Positions 7,135-24,706 of a DNA stretch of 64,000 nucleotides are shown in pieces. The DNA lies in contig NZ_FOOA01000012.1 in the NCBI RefSeq assembly GCF_900113065.1, positions 62,001-126,000 on the forward strand. Reading direction: 5' to 3'. Under the pieces are notes generated by a model. That model did not search any database. It was not told the DNA's origin and saw nothing but the letters and a program-made list of their open reading frames with translations. Every line of letters starts with the position of its first letter. The stretch's first letter is position 1. Source of the stretch: Aureimonas phyllosphaerae. Lineage in GTDB: Bacteria; Pseudomonadota; Alphaproteobacteria; Rhizobiales; Rhizobiaceae. The position numbers and the translations under genes were made by a program.

Positions 7135-7346
7135 TCGTGCATGCCTCGCATGATTTGCTTAACGCCGTGGATCACGCGGCCCGACGACGCATCCGTGGAT
7201 GGCGTCGTCTGCCCGGTGGCGCCAGTTAATGGGTTTGGTTTCAGTTCTTCGGGTGGACCGAGCCGACCGACCTGCCGCGATGACCGCAACGCATCGGAAC
7301 GCCTGGGGCGCGGGCCGTCAAGCGGCAAGTTCCCAATATTCACCAT
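7131..7346 (-). CDS. Possible 71-aa low-complexity linker protein
   Basis: This frame spans the only gap in the operon. Its ATG (7346) lies inside the end of the hydrolase gene, with AAGG six bases upstream, and its stop overlaps the GASH start codon as GTGA. That geometry is what a real, translationally coupled small gene would show. The product is rich in Pro, Gly, Arg and Ser, predicted disordered and without recognised homology. Alternatively it is chance and the 180 bases are a spacer. I keep it because every other junction of the operon is coupled in the same way. Confidence 0.4.
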   Translation of the reverse strand: MVNIGNLPLDGPRPRRSDALRSSRQVGRLGPPEELKPNPLTGATGQTTPSTDASSGRVIHGVKQIMRGMHE

Positions 7347-8830: not shown

Positions 8831-9084
8831 CGAACACCGCCGGCGGCACAGCTTCTCTTCGACGCACCGCCGGGACGTCAAAGACTGAGCGTCGGGCATT
8901 GGTAACGTTCGACCGGGAAAACCGATCGGTGACTGTTGGACGACTCACGGCGACGGCGAGCGGTCCGGCACGTTCCCGGAATGGCTTAGGATGCGAGACC
9001 CGCTGACGTGCCTCTCCGAATTTCCGCCACGGATGGATAGAGTCCGCCCAACGACAGAGGACGGCCGCCAACCAGCGCTGGAGA

Positions 9085-9330
9085 CTGGATTTCTCGAGAC
9101 TGGGAAAGCCTATGGACAATGCCTCCATGAAAGCCCTTAACGCCCGCCTGCGGAGCGAATGCCTCAACGCCTCCTAGTTCCTATCTATGGCCGATGCCCG
9201 GTTCCGGATCGGTGCATGGCGGGATGACTACAACCACCACCGTCCGCACACGAGCTTGGGAAGCTCGATCCCGCCGAGGTCGCGGATCAACTCAGAAGAG
9301 CCCGAGAGCTCTCAAGACGCCTGGGCCAAA
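9085..9330 (+). pseudogene. IS3-family transposase (OrfB) C-terminal remnant
   Basis: Read in one frame, the DNA gives LDFSRLGKPMDNASMKALNARLRSECLNAS, a TAG stop at 9175, and then FLSMADARFRIGAWRDDYNHHRPHTSLG. This is the C-terminal part of an IS3-family DDE transposase, including the region of the last catalytic Glu (RLRSECLN) and the RPHTSLG box. The TAG replaces a position that is usually Trp. After the SLG box the family-like continuation (LDPAEVADQLRRARE) is found in another frame, so there is also a frameshift. The 5' part of the transposase and the terminal repeats are not recognisable. It is a dead fragment between the conflict operon and the RiPP locus. Confidence 0.8.
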
Positions 9331-9695
9331 CTCCGGGTCAGAACCAACCTCTTCCGGTCGTCTGGAACGAAGTTTCCCGCATCGCTCAGATCCTTCCATT
9401 CTTACCACCAGGGCTGCCCGACGTCGTTACCTGTACTCAGTGGACGCCCATTGCGATGAGCGCCTGAACCCTAAGCGAATGGGCAGGCTGGATTTCGGTA
9501 GGTCGCGATCGGAAAAATATTCCGCTGCGCGACGCGATGTTTCCGTCGACTTTGCCCTTTTCGATCAGCCGCCGCCGGTCCGCTTGCGGCTGGATCGAAA
9601 CACGCATGCATGCCTGGTGGGGTGATGGACCATAGAACCGACTTCGCCATCCTCCCTCGACGCAGCAGCAGACAAGGCTGAACGGGTTGCCCTTC
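9331..9695. other. No gene recognised after the IS remnant
   Basis: This stretch lies between the transposase remnant and the convergent end of tfuA. It contains only short unrecognised open frames. I see no terminator, repeat or RNA signature. Confidence 0.4.
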
Positions 9696-10568
9696 TCAGC
9701 CATCCCAAACGGAGTGGACTGATGCTTCGGCCAGCGGCTCCGTTCCCGGCCGAGATGACGCGGATCGTGTGACGTTGGTCGCTCCACCTGTGGGCACGGC
9801 CGCATTCGGTTGTCTCGTGTCGGAGAAGCCCGTCGGTCGAAAGCCGAGGACGCGTTCAAGATCCCGCTCCAGCGACATCCAATGCGAAGTTCTCGACAGG
9901 GTCCAAGGCACCTGGGCCGAATTGCGAGCCGTGGACAACCAGTCCACGACCTTCCAGGCGTCTTCCCGTTTGCGGTCCCGAACGTTTGCGAGCAGCCTCT
10001 CCAAGACGATCGTGCGCCGCCTTTCCCTCATGCCCTCCACCATCTGAAGGGCGCGACCAAAGGTTCGTTCCGTGTAGTGCAGGTGGCGGCCGGCGATCAT
10101 CACGAGATCGCGCTCGTCCGAGGTCACCTCTCCCCTGACAGTCGCTCCGACGACAGTGGCGGCGAAGTTGACCCATGGAACGCTGAGGGGAAGCCAATCG
10201 ATCTCGGCGGGCCCATGCGCCAAGCAAACCTCCTCGTCGTCATTCAGGCGGCCTGTTTTGTAGTCGTCGTAGATCTCTCCGACCCCATGCATCCCGAACG
10301 CGTCACACTCAACGGCCCGAAGCGCGCCCATGCTTGCTCCGCCGCCGACGGCGACCCCCTTTTCGAGCGCGAACAGGATCTCCTTATGCCAGACAGACTG
10401 CATAGCCCCGAAGCACCCGTCGACGATCGCTATCGCCGTGGCTCCCTCGATGACCGCCGTTGCGACATTGCCGCGTACGGCCGGATGCCTCAGCACGAAG
10501 TCGGGGTGGCGCGTGGCAAGATGCTCGCGTTGGCCGTGGAGGCTGGGGCCGACGAACATGAACTTCAT
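9696..10568 (-). CDS. tfuA: TfuA-like protein (RiPP modification partner of YcaO)
   Basis: This 290-aa protein has the TfuA core. It opens with the FVGPSLHG strand and continues through FVLRHPAVRGNV, IAIVDGCFG, WHKEILFALEKGV and GGASMGALRAVEC. TfuA proteins, first known from trifolitoxin production, pair with a YcaO enzyme and are implicated in peptide-backbone thioamide formation, probably by supplying sulfur or activating YcaO. The ATG overlaps the ycaO stop by 4 nt, so the pair is translationally coupled. The C-terminal 60 residues are poorly conserved and look disordered. The role follows from family knowledge; the product here is unknown. Confidence 0.9.
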   Translation of the reverse strand: MKFMFVGPSLHGQREHLATRHPDFVLRHPAVRGNVATAVIEGATAIAIVDGCFGAMQSVWHKEILFALEKGVAVGGGASMGALRAVECDAFGMHGVGEIYDDYKTGRLNDDEEVCLAHGPAEIDWLPLSVPWVNFAATVVGATVRGEVTSDERDLVMIAGRHLHYTERTFGRALQMVEGMRERRRTIVLERLLANVRDRKREDAWKVVDWLSTARNSAQVPWTLSRTSHWMSLERDLERVLGFRPTGFSDTRQPNAAVPTGGATNVTRSASSRPGTEPLAEASVHSVWDG

Positions 10569-11839
10569 GCCGCGGCTCGCATCATCCTGGCAGCTCGCAA
10601 GCCTAGCTGGACGTTCTCACCGCCAATGTCGACCTCCAAGCCGGGCACCACCATCCTGACCACAGAGAGGCCCAAACAGGGATCGCCCATCGGGACAGCT
10701 ATTGCCTCCTCGATCCCGGCTGCCGAAAGACGGTTCAGCACAGACGCGATCTGGTCCTGCAACGATGCGTCCTGGTCCCCGCTGGGCCGTGGTTCGCTGC
10801 TCATCCCTGCGTGGCGTAGGTTCGCGACGACGGTATCGCCGTTCAAGCTGCCGCTCTCGTAGAGGGCGGCGGAAAAATCGTCTCGGCTTCCCGCGATGGC
10901 GGTCAACCGCGACTGCGCAGCCTCGACGACGGCGCGTATCGCCGCTCGGGATGCGATAGGGTGGCAGCCGGAACCGCCACAGACCTCGGACAGCGAGTGT
11001 TCGGGGCCGCCTTTCGTCAGCTGGGGGACGATGACCGCGCTGTATGAAGGAACGCCGATGTCGGAGGTGATATCCAAAAGGATCAGTTCCACGCCGGCAC
11101 GTTCGATGCGGGCGACGAGCGTCTGCATGACCGGATCGCGGAATTGTGCCGGATCGATGCGGGCTTGGGCCAATCGCGAGGCCGGCCAAAGCCGCATCAG
11201 CGTCCAAGCGTCCCTTTCGATCAACTCGCACAAGCCGTGCAAGACAGCCTCGGCGTGGCAATTCCCCGATGAAAGTCCATCACTGGACTGCTCGAAACCG
11301 GGAGGGCGAGGATCGCGATGGTCGACGCCCACCAGCCACCAAGGGACCGCGATCTCGACGCCCCCCATGAGATCCAGCCCCGAGCACCAAGGGATCGCCG
11401 CGTCCTCTCCGAACGCCCAAGGGACGCATCGCGCGGTCCTATCCAAGCGTATCGTCCGCCTGCCCTGTGCCCGCATTCCCCTTACCGAACCGACGCGCAG
11501 TCCTGCTGGCGGAAGTTCGGCTATGCGCGTCTCGAACGCTTCCATGGCCGCGGACACCATCGAGGCGTCAACGTCCAATCCCTTGCCCTGGAAAACGGAT
11601 AGCGTGAAGCTGTTGGGTCTGGTCGCAAACGCCACTGGTATGCCGATGACGTCCAGTCCGGTTAGCAACCCCAACCTTGTGATACCCAAATCGGGAAACA
11701 GCGGACGGAGCTTCGCGAGGGTTTCGCAGGGCCTCCGGACGCGGTCGCCGTAGACCCCCATCAAGCGATCGGTCCCGACGAGGTCGGCCTCGAGCAGCCT
11801 GATGTGATCTGTGGGAAAGCATCCGGAACCCAACGTCAC
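10565..11839 (-). CDS. ycaO: YcaO-like cyclodehydratase/thioamidase
   Basis: This 424-aa YcaO protein uses ATP to activate peptide backbone amides, giving azolines or, with TfuA, thioamides. The ATP-binding acidic residues appear in the SAAMEAFE segment and in LCELIERDAW near residue 200. Further conserved parts are GNCHAEAV, ILLDITSDIGVPSYSAVI and CGGSGCHP. I set the start at GTG 11839 because TAAGGA lies at ribosome-binding distance (it overlaps the stop of the candidate precursor gene) and because the upstream in-frame extension has no family resemblance. The order precursor-ycaO-tfuA, with a SARP regulator just upstream, fits a small RiPP cluster without a visible exporter or protease. 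Confidence 0.9.
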   Translation of the reverse strand: MTLGSGCFPTDHIRLLEADLVGTDRLMGVYGDRVRRPCETLAKLRPLFPDLGITRLGLLTGLDVIGIPVAFATRPNSFTLSVFQGKGLDVDASMVSAAMEAFETRIAELPPAGLRVGSVRGMRAQGRRTIRLDRTARCVPWAFGEDAAIPWCSGLDLMGGVEIAVPWWLVGVDHRDPRPPGFEQSSDGLSSGNCHAEAVLHGLCELIERDAWTLMRLWPASRLAQARIDPAQFRDPVMQTLVARIERAGVELILLDITSDIGVPSYSAVIVPQLTKGGPEHSLSEVCGGSGCHPIASRAAIRAVVEAAQSRLTAIAGSRDDFSAALYESGSLNGDTVVANLRHAGMSSEPRPSGDQDASLQDQIASVLNRLSAAGIEEAIAVPMGDPCLGLSVVRMVVPGLEVDIGGENVQLGLRAARMMRAAA

Positions 11840-11850
11840 TATGTTGGTCC

Positions 11851-11997
11851 TTAGCGGAACTTCATGGCGTGGACGACGGAGCCCATGCCGTTGTCGCGCG
11901 GGATGACCGAACAGGAGCCGATAGCCTCCCGGGCCTCGGCGGAAAGGTGGACTGGGCAAGCGGCAGGTGCCACCTTGATCGTCGCATTCGCCTTCAT
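11851..11997 (-). CDS. Candidate RiPP precursor peptide (48 aa)
   Basis: A short gene sits directly upstream of ycaO: AAAGGGA, then six bases, then ATG at 11997, with a TAA stop at 11851-11853. The stop is 11 bp before the ycaO GTG, and its TAAGGA doubles as the ycaO ribosome binding site. The peptide starts MKANATIKVAPAACPVHLS and ends GSVVHAMKFR, with Cys at positions 14 and 29 and several Ser, Asn and Gly in the second half. That is the expected size and place for a YcaO substrate. I recognise no known precursor family, and it does not resemble the trifolitoxin precursor. A SARP-type operator lies 48 bp upstream of the ATG. Confidence 0.7.
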   Translation of the reverse strand: MKANATIKVAPAACPVHLSAEAREAIGSCSVIPRDNGMGSVVHAMKFR

Positions 11998-12044
11998 GTG
12001 CATTCCCTTTCACGGCAGCGAGAAGGGGAATGTTTCGATCGAAG

Positions 12045-12062
12045 GCCGTCACACGGGCGTCA
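12045..12062 (-). promoter_or_regulatory. SARP-type direct-repeat operator A (precursor-ycaO-tfuA promoter)
   Basis: In the direction of the RiPP operon the site reads TGACGCC-CGTG-TGACGGC: two heptamers with an 11-bp period, the geometry known for SARP/BTAD activators. A weak -10 candidate (GAAACA) lies eight bases after the second heptamer, again as expected for SARP-dependent promoters. A third, inverted heptamer (12081-12087) makes an inverted repeat with the site. Nearly the same 18-mer occurs at 14171 and 19545. Confidence 0.65.
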
Positions 12063-12102
12063 ACGGCCAAGATCAGCCCGTGACGGCTACGAAGCGTCGG
12101 CC

Positions 12103-14049
12103 CTAGTCAAGGCCCGCCAAAAGCAGGCCCTCCATGAGCTTACGCGTATCGTCGGGTCTTCGATCGGGGACAATCTGCCAGACTTGCTCAACCCGAAAGC
12201 TTGGATAGTTCTCCCGTACGACCGCCGCAAAGCGGCGGGCGTCGAGGTTGCGCCCTGCCATCGCACAGCTGGCGGCCATCAGTCGGGACGTAGCGGCGAC
12301 CTCGGAGACGGGTTCGAGCGCGTGGATAGCCCCTACGTAATCCTCCAACTGGTAATGGATGCTCGCCTCGATCCAGCGGTAGTAGTCGGGCGGCAACGGG
12401 TTCACGCGCCTCGCCTCGGCCAGCGCTACAAGAGCTTCGTCCGCCTGCCCGTCATGCAGCAGCGCGTCGGCATAGTCCGCGAGGAGATCGCCGTCGTTCG
12501 GCATCAGGGACCTGGCTTCCGAGAAGTGCTCGAGACTTTCGGCATGGCGCTTGCGGTACAGGGACACAAAGCCGAGTTCCCTCAGCGCTCGCCCACTATT
12601 GGGATCGCAATGCCGGGCACGGTTGGCCATGGCCAAGGATTCGTCGAGCAGCTGGCTTTCCGTCATTCCCCGGACCAGCCATTCCATCGAATAGGTCCGC
12701 GACAGTCCGGCGAACGCCGAGGAGAAGCCGTCACACCTGCGCACCGCCGCCTTGAACCATCGCCGGGCCTGCCGTAAGGATTCGAGGCGGGTACCCCCGA
12801 TGGCCCGGCGACCCTCGAGATACAGTCGGTAGCCCGTCGAATCGTTGTCGTCCACGGGCGTCATGGATTCGGCCCTGTCCATGGCGTCCGCCAGTGTCGA
12901 GACCGTCTTGCGCACGACGATGTCGAGCGACTTCTTTAGGTCGGTGGTATCGATGGGTGCCCGGATCGCCCAGATCACTTCCCGGTCAGCCACCCGCGTC
13001 AAGCGACAGGACGCACCGAGCTCACCCGATCCGCCTCGAACCGAGATCGTCACCTCGTAGTCGAACTGCGTATCAGGGGACACCACCGACTCCTTTCCGA
13101 TCCGGGCGAGCTCAAAACTCGTATGGGCCGCGATGATCCGAAAAGACCTGTACTGGCTGAGGCCGACCGTGACGTCCTCGATCAACGCCTTGCCCAGCCT
13201 TTCGTAAAGCGGCTCGTCGTCGAGTCCCGTCGGTGGCATCATAATGACACGGGGCACTCCCGCGCCCCCGCGCAAATTGATGGGTACCGACCCACGGGAA
13301 GCCCGTGTGGGGCTCCCGAGACCAAGTCGCGTGGCGACGGCGTGCGTCGCGGCATCCGGTGACGAGTTGGCCTCCTCCCTCATTACGACCCGGCATTCAT
13401 GCCAAGCGCGTCGCGCCAGATACGCCGATCCCGCGTCGGCGTGGGCTTCCATCAGTGCCCGATGGCCGAAACCTTCCGTTGGGTCGATCGCCGTCAACGC
13501 TTCCGCAAGCCTGACCCGCATGGCTGGCTCTACCGCCCGCCCGCCATCAGAGAGGAGCCCCGACAGGAGGGCGGCGCGCTTGAGTGAGACCGTCCTCCGA
13601 GCCGACTGCAGCCATTCCTCGAAGGCGGGACTTTGCGCATCCACTCCCTCCAGCAGCTCGCCAGACGTAAGCCAGGCCGGCAAGTCGGACGTGAGTTCCA
13701 CTGCCGCCGTCCCCAACAGGTCTTGGACGTCCACACGCCAGCGCGTCCCAGCAAGACGAAGGGTTTCGCCGCCGGCAACCAAACAGTCGGATAGTTCGGT
13801 CAGCTTCGACATCCTCAACAGCAATTGCCGGAGGTTGGCGGATTGACGGCTGGAAGGCACATCGCCCCAGAGTAGTGATTTGACATCTCGCCGCTCGACC
13901 GTCCTTCCTGGTGAAAGCAGCAGCAACGCCAGCAGGCAGTATCCCTTCTGAGGGATGGCAAGACCGGTCATGTGGATCCGCGCTTGCGGCCGACCGAGCA
14001 GTTCGAGGGTACCGCAAGGAGGGATAGGTCCCCGGACGAACTCCAGCAT
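12103..14049 (-). CDS. SARP/BTAD-family transcriptional regulator with TolB-like and TPR domains
   Basis: This is a protein of about 648 aa. Residues 5-90 form a winged-helix DNA-binding domain (CGTLELLGRPQARI, GYCLLALLLLSPGRTVERRDVKSLLW). Residues 95-240 are a bacterial transcriptional activator (BTAD) helical domain. Residues 255-390 resemble the TolB-like region found in large regulators (VIMMPPTG, LIEDVTVGLSQYRSFRIIA). The C-terminus is a run of TPR helices (ALRELGFVSLYRKRHAESLEHF). It lies 105 bp upstream of the precursor gene on the same strand and is the obvious candidate for binding the three TGACGCC repeats. I prefer the ATG at 14049 (GGAAAG five bases before it). ATG 14064 or TTG 14073 are alternatives. 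Confidence 0.85.
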   Translation of the reverse strand: MLEFVRGPIPPCGTLELLGRPQARIHMTGLAIPQKGYCLLALLLLSPGRTVERRDVKSLLWGDVPSSRQSANLRQLLLRMSKLTELSDCLVAGGETLRLAGTRWRVDVQDLLGTAAVELTSDLPAWLTSGELLEGVDAQSPAFEEWLQSARRTVSLKRAALLSGLLSDGGRAVEPAMRVRLAEALTAIDPTEGFGHRALMEAHADAGSAYLARRAWHECRVVMREEANSSPDAATHAVATRLGLGSPTRASRGSVPINLRGGAGVPRVIMMPPTGLDDEPLYERLGKALIEDVTVGLSQYRSFRIIAAHTSFELARIGKESVVSPDTQFDYEVTISVRGGSGELGASCRLTRVADREVIWAIRAPIDTTDLKKSLDIVVRKTVSTLADAMDRAESMTPVDDNDSTGYRLYLEGRRAIGGTRLESLRQARRWFKAAVRRCDGFSSAFAGLSRTYSMEWLVRGMTESQLLDESLAMANRARHCDPNSGRALRELGFVSLYRKRHAESLEHFSEARSLMPNDGDLLADYADALLHDGQADEALVALAEARRVNPLPPDYYRWIEASIHYQLEDYVGAIHALEPVSEVAATSRLMAASCAMAGRNLDARRFAAVVRENYPSFRVEQVWQIVPDRRPDDTRKLMEGLLLAGLD

Positions 14050-14170
14050 GCGTGCTTTCCACATGTCTTTCAAACGAGCTGTTTGAAGTCTGCCGGCGGA
14101 CCGCTTTGGTCACGGGTCCCTCCCGGTCGCTTCCGCTTACCAGATGCTTACCTCGCTGAAAATTACGGTG

Positions 14171-14188
14171 TGACGCCTCTGTGACGCC
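14171..14188 (+). promoter_or_regulatory. SARP-type direct-repeat operator B
   Basis: Reads TGACGCC-TCTG-TGACGCC, two identical heptamers with an 11-bp period. GATAGA, a usable -10, begins exactly eight bases after the second copy, so the site points toward the plus strand and the toxin-antitoxin genes, 200 bp away. It also lies about 120 bp upstream of the SARP gene on the other strand, so autoregulation is equally possible. Confidence 0.6.
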
Positions 14189-14354
14189 AGTGAAGCGATA
14201 GACCGCAGTATGGTCCCTGACCGCCTTTCCCCGATCGCCTCGGTAACGGCGATCTTTCGCCGGGTGCCGCAGTGAACGCTGCGTTCCTCCACCGCACGGT
14301 TGGGAACGCTCCGCGACCCGGACAGCCAGCCGTTGGAGTGGCCAGCGGCAGTTT

Positions 14355-14366
14355 CAGAAATTTCTG
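14355..14366. promoter_or_regulatory. Palindrome upstream of mqsR, candidate antitoxin operator
   Basis: CAGAAATTTCTG is a perfect 12-bp palindrome 36 bp before the toxin start codon, in an AT-rich pocket unlike the surrounding DNA. MqsA-type antitoxins bind palindromes in front of their own operon, so this is a natural operator candidate. The sequence differs from the Escherichia coli MqsA box. Confidence 0.4.
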
Positions 14367-14402
14367 ACTTGCCACGTTGAATATTAGGTATCACGGTGCT
14401 AC

Positions 14403-14747
14403 ATGAGTGATCACAATCTTGGGGCGGTTGGGTTCGACCCTCTGGAGGTGGAGCGCCTCGCGAAGGAGCGGCTTATTGACGTAAGGGTGAAGCCTCTTGA
14501 TGACATCTACGGTTTCGGGTTGGATTCCGATGATGTCTGCGATTGGCTTTCTGAATTTAGCGCACATATTGCCCGAAGAGATTGCGCGTTCATCAAGTCC
14601 AAGCCGACGGAAAAATACCCGCCGGATACGCTATCTTATTATTATCAAGCGTACGTTGCACCGTGCAGGACGAATATATTCCTGAAATTTGCGGTCTATC
14701 AAGGACTTCTCGTGATTACATCCTTCAAGGAATTCAGCAATGACTGA
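14403..14747 (+). CDS. mqsR: MqsR-like toxin
   Basis: This 114-aa protein matches the MqsR mRNA-interferase pattern in its second half: FGLDSDDVCDWLSEF, then FIKSKPTE, a Tyr-rich stretch, YQAYV, and the final strands IFLKFAVYQGLLVITSFKE. MqsR (RelE-like fold) cleaves mRNA and is neutralised by MqsA. The protein is slightly longer than E. coli MqsR (98 aa), with an N-terminal extension. Its stop overlaps the start of the antitoxin gene by 8 bp. The toxin-first gene order is the usual mqsRA order. No good ribosome binding site is seen before the ATG. Confidence 0.75.
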   Translation: MSDHNLGAVGFDPLEVERLAKERLIDVRVKPLDDIYGFGLDSDDVCDWLSEFSAHIARRDCAFIKSKPTEKYPPDTLSYYYQAYVAPCRTNIFLKFAVYQGLLVITSFKEFSND

Positions 14748-15837
14748 TTCTCGAGCCATCTTCTGCCTTGAGTGTGGCAGCGAGAACGTCACGGAAGAGG
14801 TTTCGGAGGTCACGGCGAACGTCCGGGGTAGGACAGTAGTGCTTCCCGCCGACCGCCACATGCGCTGCGGCGCCTGCGGGTCCATCAGCCATCCGGGCAA
14901 GATGGCTGATCAGCACTTGGAGGCGATTGGCGAACGCATCCGGGAAGAAGATGGCTTGCTGTCGGTAGCCGATCTGAAGGAGATCAGGACCCGCTATGGC
15001 CTGCAACAGGAAGAGATGGAAGCGCTTATCGGCACCGGACCCAAAACTTGGGTTCGATGGGAGCGCGGACGTGTCGTGCCTTCTCCTCAGTCGGATAAGG
15101 TGATCCGGCGCATCGCCGAGGATCCTAGGTATCTGCTTCAGCTCATGGAAGAAAAGGGCGTGAGCAACGAAACAGCCTTGGGAGTGATCGAAGAGGCGTG
15201 CGAACGCGAGGTTCGAACCCACAGCGATGCATTCCGTGCGTCTCCAGCGCCCGAAAGGCAGCCAGTCGAAGTCATTGTGTCTTCTGTGCTCGGAAGGGGT
15301 TCGGAAGTCCGGAAGAGGCTCTTCGACGTCCGCAAAGCTTATGTTGATATTGATGCGACAATCGCCCGCCACAAAGAAAGGGTGCCCGTCGACGTCGAGG
15401 GATTGGCGAGGGATTTGGGCATTTCGATCGCCCGCGACACGCGAATGACGATGGGCTCGTCGGGAAGCATCACGCGAGAGACACGCCCGACGGGAGCCGC
15501 CGGCTTCCTCATTTCCGTAAACGGGCGCGAGCACCCTCACCGTCAGCGGTTCACGATCGCGCATGAGGTCGCGCATTACGTTATGCATCGCGATCGGATT
15601 GGCAATGGCATAACCGAGCCAGTACTCAATCGGAACCTCGATGGGCAAGATCCGATCGAGAGGGAAGCCAACGCGATGGCTGCCGAACTCCTCATGCCGG
15701 AGAATTCGCTGCGAGAGGCATTCGCCGAGACCAATGACGCCGCGGAGTTGGCGAGACGGTTCAAAGTCTCCCACGAAAGTATGGGATGGCGCCTTTTCGG
15801 CCTCGGTCTTACCAAAGTGAGACCACGGCAAAACTGA
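14740..15837 (+). CDS. MqsA-like antitoxin fused to ImmA/IrrE metallopeptidase
   Basis: This 365-aa two-part protein has an MqsA-type module at residues 1-130. That module contains a zinc ribbon with CLEC (C9, C12) and CGAC (C43, C46), and the MqsA helix-turn-helix LKEIRTRYGLQQEEMEAL...WVRWERG. Residues 200-365 form an ImmA/IrrE (COG2856) zinc protease domain with HEVAHYVMH near residue 275 and the downstream EREANAMAAELLMP Glu. ImmA-type peptidases cleave repressors. Here the protease is joined to a DNA-binding antitoxin, so it could relieve toxin repression or degrade the toxin partner. It overlaps mqsR by 8 bp. Domain calls are firm; the regulatory role is inference. Confidence 0.88.
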   Translation: MTDSRAIFCLECGSENVTEEVSEVTANVRGRTVVLPADRHMRCGACGSISHPGKMADQHLEAIGERIREEDGLLSVADLKEIRTRYGLQQEEMEALIGTGPKTWVRWERGRVVPSPQSDKVIRRIAEDPRYLLQLMEEKGVSNETALGVIEEACEREVRTHSDAFRASPAPERQPVEVIVSSVLGRGSEVRKRLFDVRKAYVDIDATIARHKERVPVDVEGLARDLGISIARDTRMTMGSSGSITRETRPTGAAGFLISVNGREHPHRQRFTIAHEVAHYVMHRDRIGNGITEPVLNRNLDGQDPIEREANAMAAELLMPENSLREAFAETNDAAELARRFKVSHESMGWRLFGLGLTKVRPRQN

Positions 15838-16077
15838 ACCTGCATTGACGTTTTGGTTGCGCCGCGAAGGCATACGCAGCTCGGATCCGCGGCAAAGCGA
15901 CCGCTCTGATCAAACTACTGCTACAAGCGATCGTACTCCAAGCAGTACCCCGCTCGCCGGGCGTCCTGCGCCAACCACTTGAACAGACCTTTGCCCCACC
16001 GCATACGTCCGAATTCGAACATTCGGCCGTTTGTGGTGGGTATTTGCGCTCAACCACCTACGGGCGTACAACGCCGG

Positions 16078-18099
16078 CTATCTCGACAGTTGGGAGATTA
16101 GAATCTCGCTTTGCAGTCGTTCGATGCCTTGTAGATCCTCGGTCTGCGGAGTCGCGATACGGGTGGCCCCGCTGACGAGAGTGGGCAACTCGCTCACGGT
16201 CCAGGTGATCCTGTTCAAGAACCGTCTTAGCGTATAAGGCGACGACATCCGTTCATCGAAATTTTTGGCAGCTTCACGTTCGGTCCGGTAAAGTGTGGTC
16301 GATTGCGTCACGCTGCGGCCCATCGAGTCCGATACCATCCCGATGCTGAGACTCCCCCCACTCAAATAGGTTCGCAAAAATTCCGCTTCGACGACGAGGA
16401 CACCATCAACACGCTCTGAGAAGCCGTATCCTTGGTTCGTCACCACGAGCGGCATGACATCCAGCTCAGCGGCATCGGCTTCGACTATCCCAAGCGCATC
16501 GGCAAGCACATCCCGACGTCGCTCGAGCTTGCCTGCCTTCCGACTTGCTTGAGAAGCGGCATCGAGAAGCTTTTTGTCGAACCGCTCGCGCTCATGAGGA
16601 TCCGCAGGCATCAGGAAAAACTTGACCTCGCAGACGAGGCACAGCCCCCCGAACGACAGGACGAGGTCGACTTGCTCATCGAACCGGTTGGATTTCGCGA
16701 TACCATCCGGCGCATGTCGCGGATTTGCAAAAGCTTTGTTGCTCTCGAGCGCCTTTCGGATCCGGTCCCGAAACAGGACCTCGTAACGGTCTCCGCGAGC
16801 AGTGGAAGCATTATCGGAGATGCCGCCTTTCTCCAGCCAAGCCTCCGCTCGTCTAACTGGATTGCTCGTCACCAGAGCAGGCAAAGCCAGCAGCAGCTCA
16901 TCCGTCTCCGGGACAGCGACCAGCGGCGCTGCCCAAAGCCCTTTGTTGCCTTTTGCCTTCCGTGTTCCACCAGTCTGGAACGAGAACGTCAGGAATGCCA
17001 CCACACGCTCGGCGGTAACTCTGTCGATCCTGAGTGAGGAGCTGATCGCCTCCACCAGCGTTGATGCTTCCACAGCAAGGGCGAGCCGCCTCGCCTGCGT
17101 CGGGCTCAGCGACGTGGGCAACGCTACCCTCTTAGAGAGTAGTCGGGCTATGTCTAAGATCACGTGCCACGCTTCTTGCAGCAAGCCAACGTTCAAATCG
17201 CTGTGCAGCGGCATAGGTGTCTTGATAAAGTCAGCCACATAACTGCCCTCCAGCATCCCCTTGTCGTACATGTACGAAGGCATGTGCTTCGAACGGTACG
17301 AAATGGCCCGAACCTTCAACTTGAGCTTCTTGCCGTACCCTTCGATCTCCGTGACTGAAAACGTCCTTGCCAGCGTTCGGCGTCGCTCGGGATCAATGCG
17401 CATCCAAGCGGCGCGATCGATGCTCGGATAATTCATGAAGTTCGCCTCTTGGCGCACTCTCCACGCATAAACCAATCGCTCGCGGTCGAAATCACGTGGG
17501 ATCCAGCAAATGCCGCGGGCCTGCTCGTCACGAAGATGCCATCCTTCGATCCAAGCTCTGTTCCAAAGGGTATTGAGGCTTTTTCGAAAGCTGTAGAACA
17601 TCGTGGCAGCAACCGCCATCGGCGCCAGATCGGCGATGTTCTCGCCTTCCGCGCCCGTGGATTGCGCCGCGTCGTATAACCAGTTCTCCGTAAGGTCCAC
17701 GCCCACTTCCGCGATGTCGGCAACCGTGAAGTTTTGGTTGGCCAAGCCACGAATACGTTGGTTCGCGGTCGCGTCCAGCGAACGGACGCCGCTCTTTATG
17801 GCTTCGGAGAGAGTCTTCCTGCCTAGCTCTGAAGCAGTCCGAAACTCCCGGTTCAGGGCAGCGACCGCCAAAACAGCACCCCATTCGGGCGAAAGCTTAG
17901 CGATTTCCGGATGTTGCAAGCTGCTGGCGGCTGCTCCTTCCTGGCCCAGCCAGATCGCAGCATCGTACAATCGACTATCTTCATCCGTGACGGGACCAGC
18001 CGTGAATGCCTCCTGCCAATCTGATGCCTCGAACGCGGCAGAACTTGGCGGCTTCAGCTTTTTGACAATCTGGCGGAAACGGGAAGTCTCGGTGCTCAT
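16078..18099 (-). CDS. Large protein with C-terminal PD-(D/E)XK-like nuclease motif
   Basis: A protein of 673 aa with no signal peptide or membrane segment. Residues 1-430 are helical and unrecognised. The region around residues 440-560 shows a restriction-endonuclease-like pattern: RGDRYEVLFRDRIRKALE, then QVDLVLSFGG, a strand, and CEVKFFLMPADPHERERFDKKL. It therefore has the D...E-x-K catalytic triad typical of PD-(D/E)XK enzymes. An anti-phage or anti-plasmid nuclease is plausible from the island context, but no named family is recognised. I prefer ATG 18099 over the TTG 39 nt upstream. It is 268 bp downstream of the small gene 18367-18768 on the same strand. Confidence 0.7.
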   Translation of the reverse strand: MSTETSRFRQIVKKLKPPSSAAFEASDWQEAFTAGPVTDEDSRLYDAAIWLGQEGAAASSLQHPEIAKLSPEWGAVLAVAALNREFRTASELGRKTLSEAIKSGVRSLDATANQRIRGLANQNFTVADIAEVGVDLTENWLYDAAQSTGAEGENIADLAPMAVAATMFYSFRKSLNTLWNRAWIEGWHLRDEQARGICWIPRDFDRERLVYAWRVRQEANFMNYPSIDRAAWMRIDPERRRTLARTFSVTEIEGYGKKLKLKVRAISYRSKHMPSYMYDKGMLEGSYVADFIKTPMPLHSDLNVGLLQEAWHVILDIARLLSKRVALPTSLSPTQARRLALAVEASTLVEAISSSLRIDRVTAERVVAFLTFSFQTGGTRKAKGNKGLWAAPLVAVPETDELLLALPALVTSNPVRRAEAWLEKGGISDNASTARGDRYEVLFRDRIRKALESNKAFANPRHAPDGIAKSNRFDEQVDLVLSFGGLCLVCEVKFFLMPADPHERERFDKKLLDAASQASRKAGKLERRRDVLADALGIVEADAAELDVMPLVVTNQGYGFSERVDGVLVVEAEFLRTYLSGGSLSIGMVSDSMGRSVTQSTTLYRTEREAAKNFDERMSSPYTLRRFLNRITWTVSELPTLVSGATRIATPQTEDLQGIERLQSEILISQLSR

Positions 18100-18366
18100 G
18101 ATTGGATTATCGGCTTTCGCAAAATGGAAGCACGGCAAAGGCGAAAAACATCCCCTGCCAAGTTCTCAGCCGGAGGAAGACTTTCGAACCGTTATGAGAA
18201 CACAGCTATTTTAAGACAGCATCCCAGAAGCTCAAGCCGAAATAGGCTCCGCGACTCGCCAACACTGGCTTTAGACAGTTACTCGTCCTGTTCGCCAGCC
18301 GACTCCGCTCCTACGGATTTTATTGAGGCGCAAGTCTGTCTTTGCATACGATCGCGGGAACGCCAC

Positions 18367-18768
18367 TCACTTGATCGTGCTAGCGAACGATCTCCTGATG
18401 TCATCCTTCGAAAACTGTGACAGCGCCATATGCACGAGAATTGTAATGATTTGCGATTTTGAAGGCTTATACTTCTCGACGCCAATCGAATCAGAAATGC
18501 TTGACAAAATTTCGACATCTTCGTCGAGCAAGTTCACCTTTAACTGAGCGCTCGCTCCTGGAAGGCTGGGCCGCCCTCCAGTAGATACTAACCTTCGCTC
18601 CATCTCTTTCGCGACCTGCCATAAAGAGAACGGACTGTCGTCATCTCCGACGGCACGCCCTTGAACCGCACCGAATGCGAGGGCTACGTCTTCGACGCTT
18701 ACTTTGCTCGGAAGCTTGTCAGCCTTCAGAACCCTTCGCCCGACCGCTTTTTCCGCTTTCAGCTTCAT
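18367..18768 (-). CDS. Hypothetical protein with ribbon-helix-helix-like C-terminus
   Basis: A 133-aa protein with a basic N-terminus. Residues 80-130 (LKVNLLDEDVEILSSIS... KPSKSQIITILVHMALSQF) have the strand-helix-helix pattern of ribbon-helix-helix DNA-binding proteins. It begins 11 bp after the stop of the 127-aa gene, forming a pair, and may regulate this pair and the nuclease gene downstream. No family name can be given. Confidence 0.6.
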   Translation of the reverse strand: MKLKAEKAVGRRVLKADKLPSKVSVEDVALAFGAVQGRAVGDDDSPFSLWQVAKEMERRLVSTGGRPSLPGASAQLKVNLLDEDVEILSSISDSIGVEKYKPSKSQIITILVHMALSQFSKDDIRRSFASTIK

Positions 18769-18779
18769 CTCTTTCTCGC

Positions 18780-19163
18780 CTAATCGAAATTTGACACCGT
18801 GAAGAATGTACCGAGCGACTCCATTCCGACTGAGCCTTGGTTTGTCTCCCGTCCCAAGCGCCTTACGAAATCGATCACTTTATCAATCTCGGCAACGAAT
18901 TTGTCCGGGTCTACGTACGAATAGACAACTACTGGCTCTTCAAGAATGAGTTGCCCTGTCTGAGGGTTCACCCAGGCTCCTGTGACGGGTGGCATTGCGG
19001 TCGCCCCGCCGCCAATGTCGGATAGAAGATACAGAGCCTCGGCAACCCAAGTCTTTTGGTCGACAGGTTCACCGTGCCGGTCCTTGTTCGGAATGTAGAT
19101 TGCGAAGCGATCACCGAGGGCCTCACCACCAAATGCGTCAATGACGTCGAATTCGTCTTCCAT
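18780..19163 (-). CDS. Small conserved-looking hypothetical protein
   Basis: A 127-aa soluble protein of mixed alpha/beta pattern. Its middle (WVAEALYLLSDIGGGATA...GAWVN...EEPVVVYSYV) and its end (RRLGRETNQGSVG) look like a small ferredoxin-like fold family often seen as a single-domain hypothetical protein. No catalytic motif is visible. It is the first gene of a pair with the ribbon-helix-helix-like protein. SARP-like site C lies 380 bp upstream and points toward it. Confidence 0.6.
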   Translation of the reverse strand: MEDEFDVIDAFGGEALGDRFAIYIPNKDRHGEPVDQKTWVAEALYLLSDIGGGATAMPPVTGAWVNPQTGQLILEEPVVVYSYVDPDKFVAEIDKVIDFVRRLGRETNQGSVGMESLGTFFTVSNFD

Positions 19164-19307
19164 GTCATGCCTTTAGATTTTGACTTTTTGCCCAAAAAGT
19201 CAAGGGAAGTTTTTGATCTCGCCGATCGGGCGGGAAGCGGCGCGTGGTGGGTGATCCTTTTGGGAGATCTCGCGTACGGCGCCGACCATCGAACGGTAGC
19301 CGTCATT

Positions 19308-19341
19308 CCGATGCGCAGCTGCAGCCGCAGCTGCGCATCGG
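19308..19341. repeat. 15-bp perfect inverted repeat with 4-nt loop
   Basis: CCGATGCGCAGCTGC and its exact complement are separated by AGCC. The RNA from either strand would form a very stable hairpin. There is no T-run behind it on either strand, so it is not a standard terminator. It lies within the predicted leader that would start at SARP-like site C. Confidence 0.8.
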
Positions 19342-19544
19342 GAAAGCCATCGACCGCATTCATGCCCGCCGGTCCAGCTTTGCGGGGCGATCTGCACGAG
19401 TGTGTGCAGCCTTGCGGCGAGTCTGGATGACCCGAGATGCACGAAGCCCGCCAGGCTTAGAGTAGCGTCGACTTCAGCCGTCAAACGTTCGCATCAAACT
19501 TTCCCAGCAACGGTGGCCATGATTGTGCGGACCATTCCCACCGG

Positions 19545-19562
19545 GGCGTCACAAGGGCGTCA
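19545..19562 (-). promoter_or_regulatory. SARP-type direct-repeat operator C
   Basis: On the minus strand it reads TGACGCC-CTTG-TGACGCC, the same heptamers and 11-bp period as operators A and B. AATGGT follows eight bases later as a poor -10 candidate. It points toward the hairpin and the 127-aa gene. No other gene start lies close in that direction. Confidence 0.55.
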
Positions 19563-19823
19563 ATCGTGCATGTCTTGATCGAACGACGAGACGAAGGGCC
19601 ACGTCGATCGTCTGAAGCTCTTCAATCGCTAAAGGTACGGCCGCGGCAAGCGCGACCTTTTCCAAAAGTTCCCCGTCGGAACGCCCGGACCCAAACCGCG
19701 CGTGCGTTCAATCCGAAGTCAGGCGCCGTTCGCTTCGGAAGGCAGAGAGAACAAGTGCTGTGGATTGAGGACGACGCAGGCGGATCGGTTAAGAATCCCG
19801 AAGGCCCTACCTGTGACGTTGCA

Positions 19824-20891
19824 TCAAGGCTGGGTCGGCTGCTCGGGTCGGCGAACGCGGATCTCGATGCGCCGACGCTCACGGGCATCGCGTGCTGACG
19901 ACCCGTCGCTGACGGCATCGCCGGGCAGGACCATCTGTCCGCCGGACAGCGGGATCACCGTGACATTCGAAAACCGGGGGTCGGTGCGAAACAGTCTGGC
20001 GACCGAAACGGCCCGGGCCATGCCCAACCCGGCATTGTCAGCAGGGGAGAGCGTACCGATGTCGGTCTTTCCCGACAGAACCGGAATGAGGTCCCGGTCG
20101 AGGTTGGATTCCCGCTTTCCCATCGCTTGCTCGTCGGTATGGCCGATCACCTCGACGACGCCCGCGTCGTACCGACCCATGATCTTGACGACCTCTTCCG
20201 CGATCTTTGATCTGAGGCGTTCGGCGAACTCCGGCGTGAGGTCGGCACTCCCGACCGCGAAGCTGTAGCCGGCCGCCTCGCTCAAGTTGATGATGGGAGG
20301 CCAGTCATGCTCGCCCTTGCCCGACCGCTCGGCAGCCTGCCCGAGGCCTGCAAGGCGCACGAGTTCGGCCGGCGATAGCGTGCTTACGCTTCCCTGCGCC
20401 GAAACCGCGTCGGCCAGCGCCTGCGAGGCCGTCACGGCTTGCGCGATTTCCTCTCCCGTCACGCCCCGTTCCAAGAGGGGCTGCACGGTGGCGACGTCGG
20501 CCGCCGACGTGACCAGCCGCTCCGGGGACAGCCCGGCCTCGCGCATGCGGCTGACGACCTCGTCGGACGCCACGAGGCGCTGCCATTCCTCGTCGAGCTG
20601 CCGTCGCTCGGCAGGGGACCTCCCGCTTTCGACGACCAGCCGCTTCAAACGCACAGCCTCCGCCGTCTGCCGCCGCGCGTCGTCGCGGGCGTCCGCGAGT
20701 TCGGCGTCCCGCTGGGTGAGCTGCGTTCGTAGTTCGTCGCGGACCCTGCGGTCTTCTTTGAAGATGACCGCAGCGGCGATCAGGAGGCAGAAGACGAGGA
20801 GTAGCATGATCTCCGCCATCGTCAGCCCGAGTACGAGGCCTCGGCGGTACGCGGAGCCGTCACGGTCTATGGATGTCGAGACACGACTCAT
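19824..20891 (-). CDS. OmpA/MotB-like envelope protein (ZorB-like)
   Basis: A 355-aa protein with a single N-terminal membrane helix (residues 19-43, GLTMAEIMLLLVFCLLIAAA). A coiled coil (45-115) and a linker follow, then a C-terminal OmpA-like peptidoglycan-binding domain (VEVIGHTDEQ near residue 250, later AGLGMARAVSVARLF and RRRIEIRVRR). MotB, ZorB and similar stator proteins have this layout, with an acidic residue at the start of the membrane helix for ion flow. Here that residue would be the Glu in TMAE instead of Asp. It starts 3 bp after the four-TM coiled-coil gene, its likely stator partner. Not a standard flagellar MotB. Confidence 0.8.
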   Translation of the reverse strand: MSRVSTSIDRDGSAYRRGLVLGLTMAEIMLLLVFCLLIAAAVIFKEDRRVRDELRTQLTQRDAELADARDDARRQTAEAVRLKRLVVESGRSPAERRQLDEEWQRLVASDEVVSRMREAGLSPERLVTSAADVATVQPLLERGVTGEEIAQAVTASQALADAVSAQGSVSTLSPAELVRLAGLGQAAERSGKGEHDWPPIINLSEAAGYSFAVGSADLTPEFAERLRSKIAEEVVKIMGRYDAGVVEVIGHTDEQAMGKRESNLDRDLIPVLSGKTDIGTLSPADNAGLGMARAVSVARLFRTDPRFSNVTVIPLSGGQMVLPGDAVSDGSSARDARERRRIEIRVRRPEQPTQP

Positions 20892-20894
20892 CGT

Positions 20895-22226
20895 CTACCT
20901 GACTCCACTGAATTCCGGCACGTTCGAGGACGGAACCCCGAACTGGTCTCGAAGATCGTGCTCCAGAGCATCCGCGAATGCGTCGTCTCCGGCGCCGTCG
21001 TCGTGCGAGGGCGCAATGACACTCTCGTTTCTGGCCGTTGGCTCGGCGGATGACTGTTCCCCGAAGGCTGCGGCGACGGCGGTCAGCCCGGCGGCGGCAT
21101 TCGTCAATGCTTGGATCTGACGCGACCGTACAGCGTCGGCTTCGAAATCCCTCGCGCGGTCGGCTTCCAGTTGCTGCAAGAGACGCAATGTCCCCTCCGC
21201 CCTTTCGGTCGCCTGACGCTCCGTTTCGGCCAAGGCTTCGACCCGCTTTTCCATGGACCTCGCCAAGCTCGCCAGCGAGCTGGCTTGCTTCTGGTGCTGT
21301 GCGCCGGATCGGGTGATCGCGTCGATGACCTCGCGATCGATCTCGTCCTTTCGACGTATCTCGGCGGCAAACCCTTTCATGGTCGCCTCCAATGACGCTG
21401 CGATGGGCTGGAATTGGACCGCGATGACCTTGTCCGGCATCTGCATGTCCGCCAGCCTTGCGGTCGTCGTGCGAAGGGCCTTGGTCAGTTCGGCAGTCCC
21501 AGTCGCCAGCTTCTCGTTCTCCTCCGCCAGTCGGCGAGCGGACCCGTCGAGGCTGTCGCTGATCCGTTGGGCGAGCGTCGAGAGGACGACGCCAGAACTC
21601 TCGGAGGCCGCCTCGAATGGACCGGACGCCTTCCTCGTCATGTCCTCAAACGTCGACAGAATGCGCCCCGACACCTCCTCCATGTTCACCCGGACGTGCT
21701 CGAAGCCTTCAGCAACCTGCTGCTGGGCCGAACGGCGGAAATGGGCGAGCTCCACCACGGTCTCGTCCAGCTCCCGCCGCATCCGCCTCGCGGCTTCCGA
21801 GAGCTCGAGCCTCGCTGCATGCTCGACGTCGCTTGGGTCTCGGCGCATCTGGTTGAAGACGACGCGCAGCGCCACCCCGGCGATCGTGGAGGCGACCGCG
21901 ATGCCGAAGTTGTGGACGATCTCCTCGGCCGGCCCGTCGGCCCGGAACTGGTAGAGCGACACGCCGAGGCTCGTCAGGGTGTAGAGAAAACCGAGGTAGT
22001 AGAGGTTGTCACCCGCCTGGTCGTCCCGCAGGCGCACGAAGGGGACGAACTTCACGCAACCCGCATAGGCCAGCATGACGAGGACCGGGACGGACGTCAC
22101 GGCGACCGGGGGCAATCCCGCGAACTTCGACATCACGATGTACGCGCATCCAAGTGCCATGAAGACGAAAAACAGGATGGAGTTCGCGTGTGCCGCAGCG
22201 GCCGAGGCGTCCTGGTCCCGTGCCAT
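20895..22226 (-). CDS. Four-TM membrane protein with long coiled-coil tail (MotA/ZorA-like)
   Basis: A 443-aa protein. Four membrane helices lie in residues 15-140: ILFFVFMALGCAYIVMS, VTSVPVLVMLAYAGCV, LYYLGFLYTLTSLGVSLY and NFGIAVASTIAGVALRVV. The last resembles the pore helix of MotA/TolQ/ExbB proteins. A coiled-coil tail of about 300 residues follows, as in ZorA. The ATG at 22226 overlaps the stop of the vWA-like gene by one base (TAATG); the frame is open far upstream but antisense to nothing homologous. With the OmpA-like neighbour it would form an ion-driven stator spanning the envelope. The ZorA relation is inferred from layout, not from close sequence match. Confidence 0.75.
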   Translation of the reverse strand: MARDQDASAAAAHANSILFFVFMALGCAYIVMSKFAGLPPVAVTSVPVLVMLAYAGCVKFVPFVRLRDDQAGDNLYYLGFLYTLTSLGVSLYQFRADGPAEEIVHNFGIAVASTIAGVALRVVFNQMRRDPSDVEHAARLELSEAARRMRRELDETVVELAHFRRSAQQQVAEGFEHVRVNMEEVSGRILSTFEDMTRKASGPFEAASESSGVVLSTLAQRISDSLDGSARRLAEENEKLATGTAELTKALRTTTARLADMQMPDKVIAVQFQPIAASLEATMKGFAAEIRRKDEIDREVIDAITRSGAQHQKQASSLASLARSMEKRVEALAETERQATERAEGTLRLLQQLEADRARDFEADAVRSRQIQALTNAAAGLTAVAAAFGEQSSAEPTARNESVIAPSHDDGAGDDAFADALEHDLRDQFGVPSSNVPEFSGVR

Positions 22227-23050
22227 TATCCCGCTCCCTGCACCTTCTCGACGTCCCTCACCCTGCCCCGGTTCGCCTCGAACCACTCCTGCCAGAAGGC
22301 GACCTGCCCGTTCGCGTCGAACTTCGCGGAAGCGCGCTGGATGAGCCGGATCGAGACGTCGGCGCCATGCAGGTCCGTGGCGAAGGCGCGGCTGGCGGCC
22401 GACTTGGAGAACGCTGCAAAGGACACGCCCTCCTTGTACTGCGAGTAGATCGGACCGTGCTCGATCATGTCCGACACTACGACCAGCCTCTTGTCGACGT
22501 CCTCGACGCTTCGTCCGTCGAAACGCTCCACGGCGATCCGCTGGATCGTCTCCATGATGGGCGAGGACTCCGAGGCGGACGGAGCCATGCCTTGGTCGAG
22601 GGCGGCGCGCAGCGGAGCCTGGAACGTCTCCGTCCATCGGCGGCGGACCGCGGCAGGGTTGGCGACGAGCTGGCTGAGGTTTGCGCCGTTGCCGGGATTG
22701 CACTTGGAGAATACGGTCCGCCCGCCGTCGACGGAGGGATCCAGCAAGCGAAGCTCGAGCAAGCCGTAGTCCGGGAGTTCGTCTGCGAGGTCGCCAAGAT
22801 AGGTGGCGAGCTGACGACGACCTACGGCCGGAATGTCGTCGGAGGTGTCCAGAAGCACAACCGTCACGGATCGTGGCCCGTCCACCGGACACAGGGTCTC
22901 GGCAACGAGTTCGGGCCGCTTCTCAGCCGTGAGCTTGAACCAGGCGAAGCCACCGATGATGGCAAGGCACGCCACCCCCAGAAGCGAGGCAGCGAGCACC
23001 TGCGTGCCGGATCCTCCGGAACGCCTCCCCCTACGCCGGCTGCGCGCCAT
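22226..23050 (-). CDS. Membrane-anchored vWA-like protein
   Basis: A 274-aa protein with a basic start (RSRRRGRR), one N-terminal membrane helix (residues 18-42) and a periplasmic domain. That domain opens with SVTVVLLDTSDD, a DxSxx motif like the metal site of von Willebrand A domains. It continues through a helix (RRQLATYLGDLADEL) and the later strand KRLVVVSDMIEHG. This is a vWA-like fold that could bind a protein ligand outside the inner membrane. The start overlaps the upstream gene by 20 nt and the end touches the ZorA-like gene. Function is unknown. Confidence 0.75.
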   Translation of the reverse strand: MARSRRRGRRSGGSGTQVLAASLLGVACLAIIGGFAWFKLTAEKRPELVAETLCPVDGPRSVTVVLLDTSDDIPAVGRRQLATYLGDLADELPDYGLLELRLLDPSVDGGRTVFSKCNPGNGANLSQLVANPAAVRRRWTETFQAPLRAALDQGMAPSASESSPIMETIQRIAVERFDGRSVEDVDKRLVVVSDMIEHGPIYSQYKEGVSFAAFSKSAASRAFATDLHGADVSIRLIQRASAKFDANGQVAFWQEWFEANRGRVRDVEKVQGAG

Positions 23051-24479: not shown

Positions 24480-24706
24480 GGAGAGTCGCCTGAATGGTGA
24501 TGGAAGCGTCGCGCGTCCCGATGGGCCGAGAGCTGTGATCCCTACGATTAGAGGTAGTGACCGTGGCTGCCAAGAAGGGTGGCGGCGGAATGGGGAGGTT
24601 TCACCATCGGTGAAGAGCGCATCCGGAACCAAGCGCCGTCCCCGTCCCGAACCATCGGGAAGCCATGCATCGTGGACTGGAGGCCGTACAGTCGGTCACC
24701 GATGGG

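Follow-up and report, generated by a model that had tools for sequence, protein, structure and literature searches.

A short direct repeat of the form TGACGCC-NNTG-TGACGCC occurs three times in a 64-kb window of the Aureimonas phyllosphaerae genome (contig NZ_FOOA01000012.1, positions 62,001–126,000; all coordinates below are those of this window), at 12045 (minus strand), 14171 (plus) and 19545 (minus). Comparison with related loci suggests that repeats of this build are most probably the operators of a local SARP-type regulator that belongs to a biosynthetic cluster for a ribosomally synthesised and post-translationally modified peptide (RiPP). A preliminary description of the window had listed the three copies, their common NNTG spacer (CGTG, TCTG and CTTG, respectively) and a regulator open reading frame (ORF) between the first two (12103–14073, minus strand), and all of this holds. 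Its proposal that the copies are SARP-type operators tied to the SARP/BTAD protein is likewise supported, at the level of sequence and predicted fold, by the SARP-like fold of the regulator’s head, by an architecture that recurs in 79 of 80 related loci and by an 8-nt spacing seen over 42 sites. Whether the three form one regulon is a separate matter, for which the case appears strong for the first site, plausible for the second and open for the third.

Site 1 (op1; 12045–12062, minus strand; TGACGCCCGTGTGACGGC) departs from the motif at one position and is the predicted SARP operator of an operon comprising a RiPP precursor gene, ycaO and tfuA. Site 2 (14171–14188, plus strand; TGACGCCTCTGTGACGCC) has no mismatch and is a predicted SARP operator facing toxin–antitoxin genes, and site 3 (19545–19562, minus strand; TGACGCCCTTGTGACGCC), also without mismatch, is a copy of the motif with no assigned target. 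When up to two mismatches are allowed, the window contains these three matches only, against a mean of 0.06 in shuffled sequence, with none of 100 shuffles reaching three. Scanning the whole genome (4,709,078 bases) with up to one mismatch, as the preliminary description had proposed, returned sites 1–3 and nothing else, and not the many random copies that it had expected if the idea were wrong; at up to two mismatches there are nine matches, the additional six being scattered and each carrying two, and a reversed control pattern finds none. Exact copies are absent from 19 congeneric genomes, this genome and a near relative (G171) having been set aside.

The genes downstream of site 1 fit a TfuA-type RiPP cluster, with ycaO (10565–11839; PF02624, E 8e-65; putative GTG start at 11839, longest ORF 10565–12070) and tfuA (9696–10568; PF07812, E 2e-38) adjacent on the minus strand and a small precursor gene alongside. 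The latter (11851–11997, minus strand) encodes 48 amino acids (MKANATIKVAPAACPVHLSAEAREAIGSCSVIPRDNGMGSVVHAMKFR); 47 nt separate its start codon at 11997 from site 1, and a further in-frame ATG lies at 12003. The regulator itself consists of an OmpR-like winged helix, a BTAD, a middle alpha/beta part and C-terminal tetratricopeptide repeats (TPRs). Fold searches with the whole protein are filled by TPR proteins, with no SARP among the 50 matches listed in either search, and the N-terminus was for this reason folded separately; alone it gives an OmpR-type winged helix followed by an all-helical BTAD, a fold like that of AfsR and EmbR.

To ask how far this arrangement extends, a species-genome collection was scanned with an alignment of 24 regulators; 102 stretches matched, 82 of them encoded a relative and the best 80 were kept. 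Regulator, ycaO and tfuA occur together in all 80, so the regulator gene sits in the biosynthetic cluster. The closest regulator (82% identity) is that of A. ureilytica (L040), in which sites 1 and 2 are present letter for letter, and in A. endophytica the repeat TGACGCCCGTGTGACGCC lies 24 bp past the regulator stop. A motif-free scan (any 7-mer repeated at an 11-bp period) also finds recurring repeats in the gap between regulator and precursor, with many though not all loci among the top matches; examples from Rhizobium and its relatives are TCACGCC-GAAA-TAACGCC and TAACGCT-TAAA-TGACGCA. A strict expression recovers 70 of the 80 loci and a relaxed one 79, the exception (L112) having a different gene order. 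Scored with a matrix trained on the op1 sites (19 distinct sequences, that of the window included), a repeat of build TNACGC-N5-TNACGC lies no more than 220 bp past the regulator stop at a score of at least 15.5 in 79 of 80 loci, where dinucleotide shuffles predict 0.03.

The position of this repeat is informative. In 79 loci it starts 63–82 bp ahead of the precursor start codon (65 bp in the window, or 59 bp when counted from the ATG at 12003), its distance to the regulator stop varying from 18 to 154 bp. Near-fixed spacing on one side and variable spacing on the other indicate that the operator belongs to the precursor promoter. Precursor ORFs of 41–51 amino acids ending in A[LMV][KRL][FY][RQ] are found in the window and in 79 of the 80 loci, L112 again being the exception; this ending is a selection rule that was set after the sequences had been inspected. 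A short hairpin of differing sequence recurs between operator and precursor start (in the window at 12003–12030 on the minus strand, TTCCCCTT...AAAGGGAA; in Rhizobium GCAGC...GCTGC). As a stable element of the 5′ untranslated region it was rejected, since in most of 13 cases it does not go beyond shuffled sequence (z −0.1 to −2.2).

In 69 loci a second copy of the operator, outside the training set, is found close to where tfuA ends, at a score of at least 12 (67 at 15.5 or more). It stands 61–90 bp ahead of the projected start of a gene for an 89-amino acid protein (69 sites), a spacing much like that of op1 from the precursor gene; the L053 copy overlaps the last part of the tfuA ORF. The 89-amino acid protein follows tfuA in 77 of 80 loci (12216–12482 in L053, for example), mostly with an operator of its own, and was not found in L040, L042, L112 or the window; the L053 sequence has no match in Pfam or NCBIfam. 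The second operator thus points to a new pathway member without a Pfam or NCBIfam family. Eight Neorhizobium-type loci lack the copy at the tfuA end and carry TCACGCC-CRAG-TCACGGT (matrix score 12.5) ahead of ycaO, the expression for which was written after the matches had been seen. In all, 78 of the 80 loci have at least two operators, when site 2 of A. ureilytica is counted.

Elsewhere in the 1.38 Mb of these loci only 11 matches score 15.5 or more: site 2 of A. ureilytica, three on the minus strand near the tfuA end, six near −8.9 kb and one in L114 at −613. The minus-strand matches (L074:4697, L075:12063 and L078:12064; scores 17.6–18.4) lie about 70 bp before the second operator. The copy that some Rhizobium loci carry (TGACGGCGAAATAACGCT and variants), about 8.9 kb upstream of the regulator stop, scores 19.2 in five loci, 15.8 in one and 12.6–13.5 in three. 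It was dismissed as chance because it falls inside an oxidoreductase-like ORF in both loci that were opened (L082 and L089).

Whole genomes tell a similar story. Among 60 Rhizobium genomes a degenerate pattern has 32 exact matches in 31 genomes, the reversed pattern having one. A close regulator (E < 1e-140) is encoded in 35 of the 60 and a distant one (1e-61 to 1e-65) in seven more. Of the matches, 27 lie within 100 bp after a close regulator, one is a second operator (G208) and four lie elsewhere. op1 is present at every one of the 30 close-regulator loci (of 35) that had DNA to inspect. The four matches outside the RiPP locus (G184:C8, G185, G188 and G196) have no regulator, ycaO or tfuA in the surrounding 3–3.5 kb; in the G184 cluster both operators are present in forms that escaped the pattern.

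These distributions bear on a different explanation, namely that the repeats are sites of a housekeeping response regulator of the OmpR family and not of the local SARP. Direct repeats of 10–11 bp are also used by OmpR-type proteins. PhoB, whose pho box is made of CTGTCAT repeats, is one candidate and CenR is the chief one: the CenR repeat TGA-N8-TGA is contained in the Aureimonas sites, TGACGCCNNTGTGA is an exact fit to it and, according to the available part of PMC9275681, CenR is conserved in alphaproteobacteria. Over 42 sites, however, the conserved core across genera is T-N-A-C-G-C rather than TGA, position 2 of the first repeat being A in 50%, C in 38% and G in just 12%, and that of the second mostly A. 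A global regulator should, moreover, have many sites, and what is seen is three in this genome and, of the 31 Rhizobium genomes that have a match, a single one in 30, mostly beside the SARP gene; the sites are linked to the cluster and do not form a global regulon. We consider a housekeeping regulator such as CenR or PhoB a very improbable owner of these sites.

Further support for operators of a SARP comes from the DNA that follows the repeat. When the AT content of a 6-nt window is measured at 36 offsets downstream (42 sites at 70% identity), the maximum, 0.68, falls at a gap of 8 nt, with 0.52–0.63 on its shoulders and 0.35–0.49 further off; none of 5000 circular-shift trials reaches this peak, and with the two sets taken apart it lies at 8 nt for op1 and 7–8 nt for the second operators. 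The rule given for SARPs, in the part of PMC10936776 available, is that the repeats lie 11 or 22 bp apart with the 3′ repeat 8 bp from the −10 element; direct repeats at an 11-bp period and an AT peak at 8 nt agree with that rule as given there. Candidate −10 hexamers lie 8 nt after each site: GAAACA at 12031–12036 (minus strand), weak alone and proposed on the strength of the AT peak over the 42 sites; GATAGA at 14197–14202 (plus), which is fair and identical in A. ureilytica; and AATGGT at 19531–19536 (minus), proposed from sequence. The 8-bp distance claimed in the preliminary description is thus upheld at site 2 and as the AT peak over 42 sites but not at sites 1 and 3 taken singly. A scan of 11800–19900 for the sigma-70 consensus found three matches against 1.9 expected by chance, none of them at the three sites.

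We propose that two regulator protomers would sit next to each other across the −35 region, each on its own heptamer, and would recruit RNA polymerase to a promoter without a good −35 element, as AfsR does. Binding would switch on the precursor–ycaO–tfuA operon, and extra copies of the operator would bring further units under the same switch: the 89-amino acid gene in Rhizobium, ycaO in the Neorhizobium-type loci and, in Aureimonas, the toxin–antitoxin pair faced by site 2. The middle and TPR parts of the regulator probably sense a signal. An alternative is that the protein acts on the repeats as a repressor, or that site 2 serves only the regulator’s own control; site 2 does lie upstream of the regulator ORF, 97 bp from its 5′ end, and autoregulation is common. 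Against this, the orientation of the repeats and the 8-nt gap to the −10 element are those of SARP activator promoters (PMC10936776, same part), and the plus-strand −10 hexamer of site 2 is conserved, so that we regard repression or pure autocontrol as improbable.

The best known likeness to this predicted activator is AfsR of Streptomyces coelicolor (PDB 8hvr, 8k60 and 8jke), which binds the afs box. The system described here differs in being alphaproteobacterial, in having the heptamer core TNACGC in place of the AfsR repeat, in carrying Q at the equivalent of T88 and in having a middle alpha/beta part where no nucleotide-binding (NOD-type) Pfam match is found. EmbR of Mycobacterium tuberculosis (PDB 2fez and 2ff4) ends in a C-terminal FHA domain according to the available part of PMC10936776, rather than in a middle part and TPRs. 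Likeness of the regulator body to the periplasmic domain of CadC (3ly7–3lya) is weak (Foldseek E ~1e-5, TM 0.42–0.45 by target, rmsd 16–18), with generic TPR proteins outranking CadC in that search, and HilA/EilA gives a weak match in the TPR part (22.9 bits against a cut-off of 589).

On the biosynthetic side, the YcaO–TfuA clusters of Rhizobium, of which more than 500 thioamidated examples have been reported, share with the present locus a ycaO–tfuA pair and a small precursor gene (PMC8120280, in the part of the text available). In that same part, transcriptional regulators in such clusters are mentioned only generally, the terms SARP and BTAD do not appear and no specific regulator or inducer is named. 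SARPs with 11-bp-repeat operators have been described from actinobacteria (PMC10936776, as above). Among the titles and abstracts listed as matches in a literature search, which had most subscription journals outside its reach, none connects the YcaO–TfuA clusters of Rhizobiales with a regulator of the SARP/BTAD kind or with an operator of this sort. In the present loci the whole SARP promoter grammar (two heptamers, an 11-bp period, 8 nt to the −10 element) is seen in alphaproteobacterial YcaO–TfuA RiPP clusters, in a form that makes target genes readable by comparison alone.

A number of observations weigh against reading the repeats as SARP operators. The op1 matrix scores are partly circular, the matrix having been trained on those sites, and the tests are therefore the shuffle control, the placement of the sites and the second operators. 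The 80 species are related, and their 160 sites fall to 42 at 70% identity. One-mismatch copies arise by chance, six being found in four of the 19 congeneric genomes; with its one mismatch, site 1 accordingly owes its case to its conserved position and not to its match score. The pattern also occurs away from the cluster: among the Rhizobium genomes, three of the 25 that lack a close regulator have such a match, as does one that has the regulator. As to the protein, the BTAD falls just under the Pfam cut-off (20.8 against 22.1 bits), and R92 of AfsR is kept (R87 in the window protein, invariant in 13 sequences) but T88 is replaced by an invariant Q83. The −10 element is poor at sites 1 and 3, leaving site 2 as the only Aureimonas site with a fair hexamer, the toxin start is 214 bp away from site 2, and site 3 is observed in this one genome only. 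With these points taken into account, we think it very probable that site 1 works as an operator, and the inclusion of the RiPP operon in the regulon proposed by the preliminary description appears sound.

Site 2 presents a more intermediate case. It is identical in A. ureilytica at 18 of 18 positions, likewise ahead of a toxin–antitoxin pair and with GCGATAGA conserved behind it, the identity being 46% over 14205–14380 and 69% over 14074–14160. The pair, called as such by its arrangement, would comprise a small ORF of 114 amino acids in the toxin position (14403–14747, plus strand; 65% identical in A. ureilytica; no match in Pfam, PADLOC or NCBIfam) and an antitoxin-like protein with MqsA-like, helix-turn-helix and ImmA-IrrE (M78) features (14740–15837, plus strand; 79% identical). 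Only one other genome of 247 (G543) has a relative of the antitoxin at E ≤ 1e-70 (60% identity); there no site precedes the toxin gene and no RiPP genes are found in 13 kb, and on this one comparison site 2 goes with the regulator and not with the toxin–antitoxin pair. It is plausible that site 2 drives the pair over a predicted leader of about 190 nt. Its proposed place in the regulon thus receives partial support, from the identity in A. ureilytica but with a long distance to the toxin gene, and on balance we judge an operator function likely.

The third site is another matter. It shares 20 of 21 bases with the A. endophytica operator, making a common origin of the two likely, and on its strand the first of three adjoining ORFs starts at 19163, 381 bp downstream. 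No conserved gene was found behind it, in A. ureilytica sites 1 and 2 are the only copies with one mismatch or fewer, and a decayed transposase piece (19574–19665; 77–80% to copies in the congeneric genomes G164, G167 and G170) begins 11 bp away, which we take to be of the ISL3 family. The membership of site 3 in the regulon, as put forward in the preliminary description, is consequently not established, and an operator function for it seems possible but somewhat doubtful.

What else might site 3 be? Sites 2 and 3 stand in opposite orientation at the ends of a segment (14189–19544) whose GC content, 0.565, is lower than the 0.63 and 0.645 outside it, and this, together with the transposase remnant, might suggest that they are not operators but mark an acquired segment, as its terminal inverted repeats or as scars of a duplication. 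That is most unlikely, for in A. ureilytica site 2 is likewise next to the regulator and no third copy occurs at up to one mismatch, a motif of the same build is op1 in 79 of 80 loci, and the similarity of sites 2 and 3 ends at the 18-mer, while site 3 and the A. endophytica operator agree at 20 of 21 bases. A second alternative, compatible with SARP operators at sites 1 and 2, is that those two alone work and that site 3 is a remnant that has survived by chance, either from a RiPP operon since lost or from a promoter that was duplicated. Its occurrence in a single genome, the adjoining transposase remnant and the lack of an 89-amino acid gene homologue in the window are consistent with this; when the flank of site 3 is compared with site 1 or with the A. 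endophytica precursor region, similarity is confined to the operator and short chance matches. On the other side, an intact 18-mer without a mismatch is not expected of a long-dead site, and the three adjoining ORFs start downstream of it. We regard the chances of such a relic as evenly balanced.

The ORFs near site 3 include one of 94 amino acids with a TTG start (19200–19484) and one at 18968–19363. Beyond them lies a gene for a 686-amino acid protein (16078–18138, minus strand) that has no Pfam, PADLOC or NCBIfam match and by eye shows a D...ExK nuclease-like motif. Of 297 genomes of the order, two encode a relative of it at E ≤ 1e-20 (25–26% identity), and both of those loci lack its two small neighbours, so synteny gave no target for site 3. 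Downstream of the site lies a hairpin (19308–19341) whose 15-bp stem is perfect and which has no T run (z −6.7 when folded as DNA), and a second palindrome, TTGACTTTTTGGGCAAAAAGTCAA, was noted by eye at about 19180–19203, directly ahead of the ORF that starts at 19163. An Rfam search of 9000–20000 at E ≤ 0.5 gave no match.

A far-reaching and rather improbable extension of these ideas would be a Rhizobiales-wide SARP regulon in which copies of one operator stand before the units of YcaO–TfuA clusters and new genes join by acquiring such a copy; in Aureimonas these would be the toxin–antitoxin pair through site 2 and possibly, through site 3, a three-ORF module with the 686-amino acid protein. 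If this were true, a single regulator with a TPR-rich sensory body would switch the making of the peptide together with a module for growth control or defence. A defined operator would also lend itself to building a reporter, to searching for the inducing signal and to switching on silent clusters in plant-associated bacteria.

Distant relatives of the regulator (26–32% identity by BLAST) have ycaO within about 1.5 kb in 22 of 30 loci, and just three of the 30 (L017, L031 and L149) have a position weight matrix match of 12 or more. At two distant-regulator loci (30–32% identity) repeats resembling the motif were noted: TGACGCTCGCGTGACGCC at L193:5516 (plus strand), upstream of and divergent from the regulator in the manner of site 2, and TCACGCCGGTGTCACGGC at L191:4368 (plus strand), after the regulator. 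Rhizobium populisoli has two motif matches (one and two mismatches) 437 bp apart and away from the RiPP locus (L121:1501 and L127:1501; G152:C4:53668 and 54105), and a stretch with 30% identity to the regulator starts about 1.1 kb past the second; perhaps this is a second SARP with sites of its own.

The RiPP and toxin–antitoxin segment of the window is flanked by two gene groups on the same (minus) strand, one at 4877–8778 (double-GTPase, GASH and DUF900) and one at 19824–24632 (OmpA-like and others), which are perhaps a single GTPase-associated system split by the segment. Synteny of these flanking genes was not found in the relatives, and no empty site for a supposed island between the double-GTPase/GASH genes came to light: the closest DUF900 relative (G442, 19 kb) lacks the other genes, and the other relatives were seen with short flanks. 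Lastly, a further transposase remnant lies at 9187–9459, which by eye resembles, and is presumably, a C-terminal piece of the IS3 type.

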